Source of the DNA: Sphingomonas sp.
Lineage (GTDB): Bacteria > Pseudomonadota > Alphaproteobacteria > Sphingomonadales > Sphingomonadaceae
Length of the DNA stretch: 32,336 nt
Direction: 5' to 3'
NCBI GenBank assembly: GCA_013361785.1
Contig: JABFXK010000095.1
Span: 1-32,336, forward strand
The position numbers and the translations under genes are program-made. This document shows, piece after piece, positions 2,847-9,809 of the stretch. Numbering within the stretch: the stretch's first letter is position 1; each line of letters opens with the position of its first letter. The notes under the pieces were generated by a model, which ran no database searches, was not told the origin of the DNA, and was given only the letters and a program-made list of their open reading frames with translations.

Positions 2847-3311
2847 ATGATGTTCGCGTTTTCTGCAGCGCTCGCGCTGATCGCGGCGCAGTCTCCGGCG
2901 GCGGCCGGTACTCCGGTCGAATCCAATCTCGAATATGCGAAGCCGGTTGCCGGCAATTGGGTTTACGCAACGGCGAGCGACGGCAGCTCGGCGACGTTCG
3001 ACAATTTGAGCGGTCAGCCGCAGCTGACGATCCGCTGCACGCGTTCGACGCGCCACGTCGCGATTCTCAAGAATTCGCCGATCGCATCCCCGTCGCTATG
3101 GATCTGGACAAGTTCGCAGACGAAGACCCTGCCTGCGACCTATGACGCGTCGTCCGGCCGGGTACGCGTGGACGTCGGCGCTTACGATCCGCTGCTCGAC
3201 GCAATCGCCTCTAGCCGCGGCCGGATCGGCTTCAGCACCTCCGGGCTTGCAGCGTTGGTGGTGCCGCCGTGGGCGGACGTTGCGCGAGTGATCGAGGATT
3301 GCCGCGCCTGA
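2847..3311 (+). CDS. Hypothetical secreted protein
   Basis: 154-aa ORF starting 4 nt after the phaR stop, with an N-terminal hydrophobic signal-like sequence 'MMFAFSAALALIAAQSPAAAG'. Confidence 0.65.
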   Translation: MMFAFSAALALIAAQSPAAAGTPVESNLEYAKPVAGNWVYATASDGSSATFDNLSGQPQLTIRCTRSTRHVAILKNSPIASPSLWIWTSSQTKTLPATYDASSGRVRVDVGAYDPLLDAIASSRGRIGFSTSGLAALVVPPWADVARVIEDCRA

Positions 3312-3422
3312 CGCGCGAAGCAAGGAAGTGTGACGATAATTCACACGAATACAAGTCTTGTCTTCGCGCTTCTAAAGACTCATCTTCCTCTTGGCTTCAA
3401 CGCAGCGAAAGGAGGTGATCCG

Positions 3423-3473
3423 ATGTCTCATGGTTCAGCAGGGAGGTCGGAAAGGGGTGTTCGTAAGCTCTAA
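3423..3473 (+). CDS. Putative 16-aa peptide ORF (MSHGSAGRSERGVRKL) with an extended Shine-Dalgarno
   Basis: ATG..TAA preceded by GAAAGGAGGTGATCC, complementary to the 16S rRNA 3' tail. Followed by a strong terminator hairpin. Below the ORF-track length cut-off. Confidence 0.5.
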   Translation: MSHGSAGRSERGVRKL

Positions 3474-3514
3474 TCGCTGACGGACGGCCACATCTCCGGC
3501 CGCTGACCATGTCG

Positions 3515-3556
3515 AAGGGCATCGCTGCGATTACGCGGCGGTGCCCTTTACATTTT
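3515..3556 (+). terminator. Rho-independent-like terminator hairpin of the mini-gene
   Basis: AAGGGCATCGCTGCG-ATTA-CGCGGCGGTGCCCTT forms a continuous 15-bp stem (2 G-U pairs), followed by the T-rich TACATTTTCT. Confidence 0.8.
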
Positions 3557-3652: not shown

Positions 3653-4375
3653 ATGGCCAAATCCGCACGCAAAAGTTCTTCCCGTAGCAAATCATCGTCC
3701 GGTTCGCGTTCATCGTCGTCGGGTTCGCGATCGAGCTCGTCGCGTTCGAGCTCGAACAAGAACACCGTCGACAAGCTCGCGAAAGCCGCGATGAGCAAGG
3801 AAATGCTCGCCGCCGGACTGACCGCAGCAGCAGCAGCGATCGCCGCCAGCCCATCGGCGCGCAAGAAAATCCGCGACGCCGGGCTCGATGCCGCCGACAC
3901 CGCAGAACGCGCGGCGAGCAGCGTCGTGTCGAGCGCGACTAAGCTCGGTTCGTTGATCGCCGAAGCCGTCGCTGATGCGGCGCAGCGCGTGATGTCCGGA
4001 AAATGGTCGCCGAGCGACAGCTCGACCGGCGGCACGACCTCCGGTTCGTCGGCGTCGTCCTCGACCCGCAAATCGAGCGGCACGCGCAAATCCTCCGGAT
4101 CATCGAAAGCCAAGCGCTCGAGCAGCGGCTCGTCGCGCAGCTCGGCGGCGAAGCGGTCGACTGGCGGTGCGAAGAAATCGAGCTCGTCGCGCGCGAAATC
4201 GTCGAGCTCGGGCGCGAGCCGATCGTCCGGCGCTCGCAAGTCGAGCGGCAAATCCACTGCGAAGCGCTCGAGCGGCCGATCAAAATCGTCGCGCAGCAAG
4301 AGCTCCACTTCGCGCGGCGGCGGCTCGTCCGGATCGACCGGCGGCAGCAGCGGCGGCGGAAGCGCGTCCGGCTAA
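3653..4375 (+). CDS. Ser/Lys/Arg-rich low-complexity protein with a central Ala-rich helical segment
   Basis: 240-aa ORF preceded by ACGGAGGGAG. N-terminus 'KSARKSSSRSKSSSGSRSSSSG', central 'VDKLAKAAMSKEMLAAGLTAAAAAIAASPSARKKIRDAGLDAADTAERAASS', and a C-terminal half of repeated 'KSSG/RSSG/KRSS'. Confidence 0.75.
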   Translation: MAKSARKSSSRSKSSSGSRSSSSGSRSSSSRSSSNKNTVDKLAKAAMSKEMLAAGLTAAAAAIAASPSARKKIRDAGLDAADTAERAASSVVSSATKLGSLIAEAVADAAQRVMSGKWSPSDSSTGGTTSGSSASSSTRKSSGTRKSSGSSKAKRSSSGSSRSSAAKRSTGGAKKSSSSRAKSSSSGASRSSGARKSSGKSTAKRSSGRSKSSRSKSSTSRGGGSSGSTGGSSGGGSASG

Positions 4376-7179: not shown

Positions 7180-8409
7180 ATGCTCTACGACGCCTATGAA
7201 GTGCAGCGCTCGCTTCTCGCAGGTGCGAGCAAGCTTGCAGGACTGGGCGCCGGATGGCTGAACAATCCCGCCAATCCCTTCGGCTATAGCGCCATGGGAC
7301 CGCTCGTCGCCGCCAGCCTCGAAGTGTTCGCCCATGCGGCCGCGCCGCGTGGAAAGCCCGAATTTGCGATCGGCAGCGTCAAGATTGGCCGCAAGCAGGT
7401 CTGCGTCGACGAGCAGATCCTGCTGCGGAAGCCGTTCGGTCAGCTCAAGCACTTTTCTCGTGACGGCGTCGACAACGGCCCCTCGCTGCTGATCGTCGCG
7501 CCGATGTCAGGCCACTATGCGACGCTCCTTCGCGGGACGGTCGAGCGCCTGCTCCCGAGCTTCGACGTCTACATCACCGATTGGCGCGACGCGAAATGCG
7601 TGCCGCTGGCGGACGGCAGTTTCGATCTCGACGACTATGTCGATTACCTTATGGAATTCGTCGAGTTCATCGGCGAACGAACTGGCGAGCGGCCGCACCT
7701 GCTCGCCGTCTGCCAGCCGGCGGTGCCCGCCTTCGCTGCGACCGCGCTGATGAATGCCGACAAGAATCCGTGGCGGCCGAAGTCGCTGACGATGATGGGC
7801 GGGCCGATCGACACCAGGGAGGCGCCAACGGCGATCAACACGCTCGCGACGCAGCGGCCGTTCAGCTGGTTCGAGCACAATGTGATCGCGACCGTGCCGA
7901 TGTTCTATCCGGGCGCGGGGCGAAAGGTTTATCCGGGCTTCCTGCAGCTCGCCGGCTTCATGGCGATGAACCTCGGCGATCACCTGATCAGCCATTGGGA
8001 GATGTTCAAGCACCTCGTCGAAGGCGACGACGAGCACGCTGCCGCGACGCAGAGGTTCTACGACGAATATCGCTCGGTCTGCGACATGACCGCCGAATTC
8101 TACCTTCAGACCGTCGACGTCGTCTTCCAGCGGCACCTGCTTCCGAAAGGCCAGTTGGAGCACCGCGGGCGGCTGGTGGACCCGGCCGCGATCCGAGACA
8201 CGGCGCTGCTCGCGATTGAGGGCGAGCGCGACGACATCTCCGGCATTGGCCAGACGAAGGCCGCGCTCGACATCGCGACGAAGCTTCCGGCGAAGAAGAA
8301 GCAGTATCTGCTCGCCAGGGATGTCGGCCATTACGGCATCTTCAACGGCCGCAAATGGCGCGACCGGATCGCGCCCGTGGTCGAGAAGTTCATTGCCGCG
8401 AACGACTAG
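7180..8409 (+). CDS. phaZ: Polyhydroxyalkanoate (PHB) depolymerase, intracellular type
   Basis: 'MLYDAYEVQRSLLAGASKLAGLGAGWLNNPANPFGYSAMGPLVAASLEVFAHAAAPRGKPEFAI', 'PHLLAVCQPAVPAFAATALM', 'DVGHYGIFNGRKWRDRIAPVVEKFI'. The ATG at 7180 fits the family better than the ORF-track start at 6997. Confidence 0.92.
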   Translation: MLYDAYEVQRSLLAGASKLAGLGAGWLNNPANPFGYSAMGPLVAASLEVFAHAAAPRGKPEFAIGSVKIGRKQVCVDEQILLRKPFGQLKHFSRDGVDNGPSLLIVAPMSGHYATLLRGTVERLLPSFDVYITDWRDAKCVPLADGSFDLDDYVDYLMEFVEFIGERTGERPHLLAVCQPAVPAFAATALMNADKNPWRPKSLTMMGGPIDTREAPTAINTLATQRPFSWFEHNVIATVPMFYPGAGRKVYPGFLQLAGFMAMNLGDHLISHWEMFKHLVEGDDEHAAATQRFYDEYRSVCDMTAEFYLQTVDVVFQRHLLPKGQLEHRGRLVDPAAIRDTALLAIEGERDDISGIGQTKAALDIATKLPAKKKQYLLARDVGHYGIFNGRKWRDRIAPVVEKFIAAND

Positions 8410-9809
8410 GCGCGGTTCTTCATCCTGACGTTCCCGAGCATCGTCAACGCAACGCCGCTCGAAACCGCCGCGACCGCTGCGGAAACCGTCATCGCCACAT
8501 GAAAGCCGCCGAACAGCGCATTGCCGCTGCTCGCGAGCACGGCACCGAGAAGCGCGGTGGCGATCAGCCCGCCAGTGCGCGCGACCGCGCTGTTGAACCC
8601 TGACGCCATCGCGACATGCTTCTCCTCGACCGAACCGAGCACCGAGGCGGTGAGCGGCGCGACCGCAATCGTCATGCCGAGCGCCATCACGACGATCGCC
8701 GGGAATGCGCCCGTCCAGTAGCTGGTTTGCGCGCGGATCAGCCAGGATAGGAGCAGGCCGGCGGCGACGACGAGCGGCCCGATCGTGAGCGGAAGCCGCG
8801 CTCCGACCCGCATAGCAAGCGCACCCATCCTCGGCGATGCCGCGGTCATCAGGATCGGCAACGGAAGGAGCGCGAGTCCCGCCTCGACCGGCGAATAGCC
8901 GCCGCTGCTGATCAGGACGTACGGGATCAGCAGCATCGCCGCGGCGAACGCGCCGTAGAGCAGGAAGGTGAGCAGGTTCAGACCGGAGAAGCAGATGTTG
9001 GCGAATAGCTGCAGCGGCATCATCGCACGCTCGCCGCGCCGTTGCTCCGCACCAAGGAAAGCTCCGAGCAAGACAATCCCTGCCACGATCGAGATCAGCG
9101 CGACCGCATCCGCTCTGCGGTGCGCGGACCACAATGTGAGGCCGTAGGTCAGTCCGAAGAGCCCGGCGGTCGCGAGCACGGCTCCGGGATAATCGGTGCG
9201 CCCGGCGCCTCGCTCCCGGCTCTCGGCGACAAAGCGCAGCGCGAGCAGGATCGCGCCGAGTGCGAGCGGGAGGTTGATGTAGAAGATCGCCGGCCAGCCG
9301 ACCGTGCCGACCAGCCACCCTCCGATCAGCGGCGCGACGGCGGCGCACGCCGCGCCGGCAGCGGCCCAAATCCCGACCGCTCGCCCGCGCTTCTCGCCGG
9401 AATAAGCTGCATTCAGGAGCGCCAGGCTGTTAGGCAGCAATAACGCGGCGCCGATCCCCTGCGCAGCTCGCGCGGCGAGCAGGAGCGGCAGGCTCGGCGC
9501 CAGCGCGCAGGTCAGGGACGCGAAGCCGAACAGGCTCGTTCCGATGACGAGCAGCCGCCGCCGTCCATAATGATCGCCAACCGCGCCGCCGAGCAGCAAT
9601 AGCGCCGACAGCGGCAGCAGATAGGCGTTGACCACCCATTGCACGTCCGCGGCCCCGGCCGCGTAGCTCTGGCGGATCGCCGGGAGCGCGATGCTCGTCA
9701 CCGATCCATCGACGAAGCTCAGGCTCGATGCGAGGATGCAGCAGACGAGCGTCCAGCGCGCGTCCGCGCGGCGGGTTTCAGCCCCTCTGCTGGCGTCGCG
9801 CGGGCTCAA
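8406..9809 (-). CDS. MFS transporter, DHA2/EmrB-QacA-like
   Basis: Hydrophobic multi-TM protein; 'SSLSFVDGSVTSIALPAIRQSY', 'GDHYGRRRLLVIGTSLFGFASLTCALAPSLPLLLAARAAQGIGAALLLPNSLALL'. Start codon appears to be TTG. Confidence 0.9.
   Translation of the reverse strand: MSPRDASRGAETRRADARWTLVCCILASSLSFVDGSVTSIALPAIRQSYAAGAADVQWVVNAYLLPLSALLLLGGAVGDHYGRRRLLVIGTSLFGFASLTCALAPSLPLLLAARAAQGIGAALLLPNSLALLNAAYSGEKRGRAVGIWAAAGAACAAVAPLIGGWLVGTVGWPAIFYINLPLALGAILLALRFVAESRERGAGRTDYPGAVLATAGLFGLTYGLTLWSAHRRADAVALISIVAGIVLLGAFLGAEQRRGERAMMPLQLFANICFSGLNLLTFLLYGAFAAAMLLIPYVLISSGGYSPVEAGLALLPLPILMTAASPRMGALAMRVGARLPLTIGPLVVAAGLLLSWLIRAQTSYWTGAFPAIVVMALGMTIAVAPLTASVLGSVEEKHVAMASGFNSAVARTGGLIATALLGAVLASSGNALFGGFHVAMTVSAAVAAVSSGVALTMLGNVRMKNRA

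Follow-up and report, generated by a model that had tools for sequence, protein, structure and literature searches.

A conserved sphingomonad RNA related to CC2171 pairs a 15-nt complement of the 16S rRNA tail with a framed micro-ORF and may act as a start-site switch

Why would a bacterium keep, at a single place in its genome, a 15-nt complement of the 3′ tail of its own 16S rRNA in front of an ORF of 16 codons? The question is raised by a short element on the forward strand of a Sphingomonas sp. contig, within a stretch of 32,336 nt that is called the window here. The original prediction offered three functions for it: a highly expressed micro-peptide, a ribosome-binding decoy or sponge RNA, and a leader regulated by ribosome occupancy. 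Our preferred reading (probability roughly 55%) is a dual-function RNA whose start site would switch between a closed fold and capture by the 30S subunit. If so, it would be a compact start-site switch and a natural gauge of free ribosomes in bacteria that are sparing with Shine-Dalgarno (SD) sites. The element also matters in two further respects: its exceptional ribosome match is nearly unique in its genome, and a conserved RNA, found in a bacterial class that ranks among the largest, appears to have been catalogued simply as an sRNA despite its framed micro-ORF.

Results and discussion

The features discussed below, in coordinates of the window, are as follows.

3351-3361, + strand: palindrome ACAAGTCTTGT (ACAAG-T-CTTGT inverted repeat), present in 29 of 30 same-genus loci
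3357-3362, + strand: -35-like element CTTGTC, part of the ACAAGTCTTGT palindrome
3381-3386, + strand: -10-like element CATCTT, 18 nt past the -35-like element; position of CATCTT/CACATT conserved in same-genus and family alignments
3407-3421, + strand: 15-nt complement of the 16S 3′ tail, GAAAGGAGGTGATCC, an exact match
3423-3473, + strand: 16-codon ORF MSHGSAGRSERGVRKL plus TAA, with frame 0 closure conserved in relatives
3429-3439, + strand: 5′ strand of helix P1, CATGGTTCAGC, pairing with 3502-3511; compensatory changes class-wide at the equivalent helix
3445-3450, + strand: GGTCGG as 5′ strand of helix P1b, with its complement CCGGCC at 3496-3501; conserved in 138 of 152
3491-3497, + strand: internal anti-SD-like CATCTCC, pairing with GGAGGTG at 3411-3417 in the predicted minimum-energy fold
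3496-3511, + strand: 3′ strands of P1b (CCGGCC) and P1 (GCTGACCATG), from the alignment
3514-3549, + strand: intrinsic terminator with a 16-bp stem, kept by compensatory changes in relatives

An exact complement of the 16S tail

The SD-like block is real, and its first base is 3407, one base before the start at 3408 originally given. Within the window it is the sole match at up to three mismatches, and the exact 14-mer AAAGGAGGTGATCC occurs once in its own genome, at this block. The tail was taken from the sole same-genus genome with an unmasked 16S end (GGCTGGATCACCTCCTTTCTAAGG), as 16S looks masked in most other genomes examined; all 15 block bases pair with that 3′ end, given as GGCTGGATCACCTCCTTTCT, so the predicted perfect 15-nt match is exact. 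The predicted duplex with the tail reaches -28.0 kcal/mol versus -9.2 for AGGAGG. Sites of the form AGGAGGTGATC-N0-4-ATG number about one per genome and are present in 34 of 41 same-genus genomes, where nearly all of them belong to this element and the reversed-pattern control gave 0 sites. In this the element resembles Flavobacteriales rpsU, likewise the single gene of its genome whose pairing with 16S is exceptional. Across 159 family-1 elements, 23 family-2 elements (a second copy, described below) and 30 class members the block is near-invariant, and position 12 carries the sole frequent in-block change common to all groups, A to G, which retains a G-U pair with 16S. In GTG-start relatives the complement is longer and takes in the first base of the start codon.

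Two trivial origins were considered. Chance is rejected by the conservation and the controls. A displaced piece of rRNA can be dismissed as well, since the block runs antisense to 16S, matches over just 15 nt and is conserved in place. Separately, at L217, L216, L220 and similar loci, the ORF contains CUGGAUCNUCGCCUC, a sequence similar to the 16S tail GGCUGGAUCACCUCC itself.

A complement of this length (longer still in the GTG-start relatives) goes beyond the need of ordinary initiation, and together with the strong predicted duplex it would suit a trans-acting decoy or sponge that soaks up 30S subunits or covers 16S tails, stationary phase being one possible setting. Such an RNA would need a very high copy number, however; its SD is predicted to be closed, and the conserved stop suggests that ribosomes traverse the ORF. 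We strongly doubt this explanation.

Distribution across the family and class

Originally described as an orphan, the unit proves to be conserved across the family and to have a class-wide RNA relative. By DNA search, about 30 of 37 same-genus genomes contain it, and its sequence hardly varies from CAGCG through TTCAGC. By pattern search, it is present in 335 of 401 family genomes, representing 87 of 96 genera (reversed-pattern control near 0), among named genomes in Sphingomonas, Novosphingobium, Sphingobium, Erythrobacter, and Qipengyuania. The SD-like block, the start codon and the distance to the stop are all conserved among the family relatives, bearing out the conservation among sphingomonads that the original prediction would entail. 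The block-plus-start pattern is present in 97 of 385 class genomes, and outside the class just a few scattered one-mismatch sites were found. Five complete same-genus genomes have no detectable element between PhaR and the gene at 3653, so the element is not essential.

Many genomes hold the family-2 copy, which starts MSHC and in several loci lies directly after PhaZ. It was sought after PhaZ in the window (8406-8700) and is absent there; the ORF directly after PhaZ lies on the opposite strand and looks, by eye, like an MFS-type transporter. One family-2 element (L101) lies on a contig labelled Candidatus Kuenenia stuttgartiensis (a MAG), probably a misbinned Alphaproteobacterial contig.

A putative transcription unit and its neighbours

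Upstream of most family-1 loci lies ACAAGWCTTG(T) with CATCTT or CACATT, and [AT]CAAGNCTTG occurs within 110 nt upstream of 109 of the 159 family-1 elements versus 1 of 148 in a control window. A promoter scan with an E. coli-type consensus found none at the element. The conserved signals suggest that the element has its own promoter, with transcription starting near 3393. The inverted repeat ACAAGTCTTGT stands at the -35 position in most relatives and could alternatively be a regulator site. The predicted dedicated terminator exists, its stem being one pair longer on inspection (16 bp at 3514-3549, not 15 bp at 3515-3548), and the small hairpin (inverted repeat 3485-3502) has its arms at 3485-3489 and 3498-3502 as described. 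Together, the sequence signals support the compact, complete transcription unit that had been proposed, probably an RNA gene in its own right, some 160 nt long.

In 126 of 138 family loci the element is preceded, in the same orientation, by hyp2847 (2847-3311), which encodes a putative exported protein of 154 aa. The element as a by-product of hyp2847 was rejected, since several same-genus loci (L021, L022, L025) carry the element with no detectable hyp2847 and the element has promoter-like signals of its own; the five complete same-genus genomes that keep PhaR and the 3653 gene without the element also show no detectable hyp2847. Downstream, 3653-4375 encodes a Ser/Lys/Arg-rich protein of 240 aa (histone H1-like by eye), beside PhaR and near PhaZ. 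Neither hyp2847 nor the 3653 gene has a match in Pfam or NCBIfam.

Could the element be a cis-acting attenuator of that Ser/Lys-rich gene? Its terminator ends about 100 nt before the gene, which follows the element in nearly all same-genus loci. Yet the 3653 gene is conserved inside the genus only, with no conserved downstream gene across the family and hence no conserved regulated gene directly downstream of the element, and it occurs without the element in five genomes. Nor do the predicted alternative helices, which end before 3514, overlap the terminator stem as an antiterminator would. Class members share no neighbour genes beyond close relatives. Attenuation of the 3653 gene thus seems scarcely credible. 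The predicted leader regulated by ribosome occupancy holds up as a self-contained switch and fails as a leader in the strict sense, there being no downstream gene conserved family-wide.

The micro-ORF: a selected stop and a variable peptide

The 16-codon ORF is present at 3423-3473 as first described. Of 159 family-1 elements, 157 have a frame 0 that ends after 15-20 codons, while the other frames close at scattered lengths; the same holds for the 23 family-2 and the 30 class elements. In eight of the eleven loci that represent the window's clade, the stop comes directly after codon 16, where TAA, TGA, and TAG replace one another. Selection on the ORF stop is supported by this pattern. In codons 7-17, 875 nonsynonymous versus 220 synonymous single changes were counted and position 3 differs least, so that the excess of synonymous change expected of protein-type conservation was looked for in these codons and not found. 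As the place of the stop is kept, although the codon used there and the residues at the C-terminus vary, selection seems to act on translation up to a fixed point and much less on the peptide. One copy (L010:1454-1703) is frameshifted, and its ORF extends to 66 codons through the terminator region.

These data bear on one alternative, a plain small mRNA in which the long SD drives strong translation of a functional micro-peptide. It would account for the invariant SD, the fixed spacing, and the conserved ORF start (MSHGSA or MSHC) and stop. It is at odds with the pattern of change in codons 7-17, MSHGSA overlaps P1 so that its constancy may be at the RNA level, and in the predicted folds the SD is paired. 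We consider this alternative quite unlikely, and the highly expressed micro-peptide first suggested is not favoured, given the missing synonymous excess and the predicted pairing of the SD.

A fold that may compete with the ribosome

RNA 3393-3556 folds far better than its shuffles (-82.4 vs -56.7 kcal/mol, z -6.1). In the predicted minimum-energy fold of the window's element, GGAGGTG/CATCTCC and CAGCG/CGCTG are paired and P1 is excluded, the CATCTCC/GGAGGTG pairing and P1 being mutually exclusive. GGAGG was mostly unpaired in 0 of 152 predicted family-1 ensembles. Taken alone, the internal anti-SD duplex is no better than shuffles in family 1 (mean z -0.37); as a general feature of family 1 it is not supported by duplex energies, and the closed state in the window therefore rests on folding prediction.

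Covariation was assessed for P1, the block-to-ORF helix and the terminator in 40 class and family-2 sequences. Each helix beat all 500 shuffles and all slid controls, and 15 of 21 pairs in the three helices changed on both sides versus 5.9 in shuffles. P1 scarcely varies in family 1, and its support stems from the relatives. The block-to-ORF helix, strong in class relatives only, is fully complementary in 27 of 91 sequences versus a mean of 6.2 (maximum 12) with blocks permuted among sequences, a contrast inflated by related sequences; yet distinct variants (CAG/CTG, CTG/CAG, and CCG/CGG) exist. P1 and this helix cross, and would make a pseudoknot if formed together. The SD block can thus be locked within the RNA: many relatives have the compensating helix for this, and the window has its predicted minimum-energy fold.

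From the conservation, the 16S complementarity, the helices, the ORF frame and the promoter-like and terminator signals, all read directly in the sequences, we infer transcription, translation, a competition between fold and ribosome, and a target for the switch. In the closed state of the proposed dual-function RNA, the SD block and the ORF start would both be held in intramolecular pairs. In the other, open state, the 15-nt block would be captured by the 16S tail of a 30S subunit, and translation of the ORF would then melt the helix between the ORF and the 3′ end. Fold and ribosome binding would compete, which may let the RNA respond to how many free 30S subunits there are or to the state they are in. 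Judging by general ribosome geometry, the AUG should be kept out of the P site while all 15 bp of a duplex that stops one base short of it are formed. A wider version, which we put forward tentatively, would hold for an Alphaproteobacteria-wide RNA: an ORF mimic of the 16S tail (CUGGAUC..GCCUC, Caulobacter-type) might shut the complement until displaced by free 30S subunits, making the RNA a gauge of ribosome supply or of 16S-tail accessibility.

Relation to RF01867 (CC2171)

At the Rfam gathering score, only tRNA was found in the window and nothing for the element. With E-value reporting, the RF01867 (CC2171) model aligns over its whole length (positions 1-159) to window positions 3399-3547 with a score of 41.7 bits (whole-genome E 2e-7), below the gathering score of 75 bits; other sphingomonad loci score 36-67, the best reaching 66.7 bits. 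Searched class-wide, RF01867 matched 85 of 385 genomes; of 14 named genomes used as controls, Caulobacter vibrioides alone had a match. The RF01867 consensus has the same block followed by GUGUCUCAUUGUC, and a helix around a variable middle (P1) whose letters differ from ours and whose pairing is the same, with compensatory changes. We read the element as a diverged sphingomonad paralogue of RF01867, not a member by Rfam's own rule; the family-2 copy is closer to RF01867 than the window's element.

CC2171 is reportedly a Caulobacter sRNA originating from Landt et al. 2008, and it is little studied; among the papers open to a literature search, none describes its function. If its filing were taken at face value, the element would be a base-pairing regulatory sRNA with an incidental ORF. 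The Rfam class ("Gene; sRNA"), the element's own promoter-like signals and terminator and the strong structure fit such a role, but an incidental ORF would hardly keep its frame in 157 of 159 relatives or turn over its stop codon at a fixed place, and the most conserved stretch is the 16S match. We regard this as unlikely. A published Caulobacter map counts against the translated, dual-function reading in that its ncRNAs were generally not translated, although two formerly predicted ncRNAs were; SD sites were present in 24.6% of genes (PMC4117421).

Comparison with known systems

The nearest known relative is CC2171 itself, which shares the 5′ block GAAAGGAGGUGAUCC, UGUCUCAU at the ORF start, P1 at the equivalent place, the terminator and alignment over the full length. 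It differs in its P1 (CAUUGUC/GACAAUG versus CAUGGUUCAGC/GCUGACCAUG in the element) and in that the element starts with ATG; the Rfam entry lists no ORF. Sinorhizobium rnTrpL/peTrpL (PMC10117765, PMC7298713) is likewise small, with a translated ORF of 14 codons and a terminator, and is a dual-function attenuator RNA; in contrast to the element, which has no conserved downstream operon, it is leaderless and lies upstream of trpE. In Staphylococcus aureus, extended SD pairing also goes past GGAGG and accepts G-U for A-U, but involves about two extra pairs in many mRNAs, compared with 14-15 nt at one locus here (PMC13009471). In Flavobacteriales, rpsU has an extended SD and is autoregulated by ribosomes lacking bS21, and in Flavobacterium this SD is read by a ribosome subpopulation (PMC9976891). 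That gene encodes a ribosomal protein, not a micro-ORF, and belongs to a different phylum, and it is not known to have an internal lock like the one proposed for the element. In both cases a single gene of the genome carries an exceptionally long complement of the 16S tail; the sensing of ribosome state, shown there for rpsU, is what we propose for the element.
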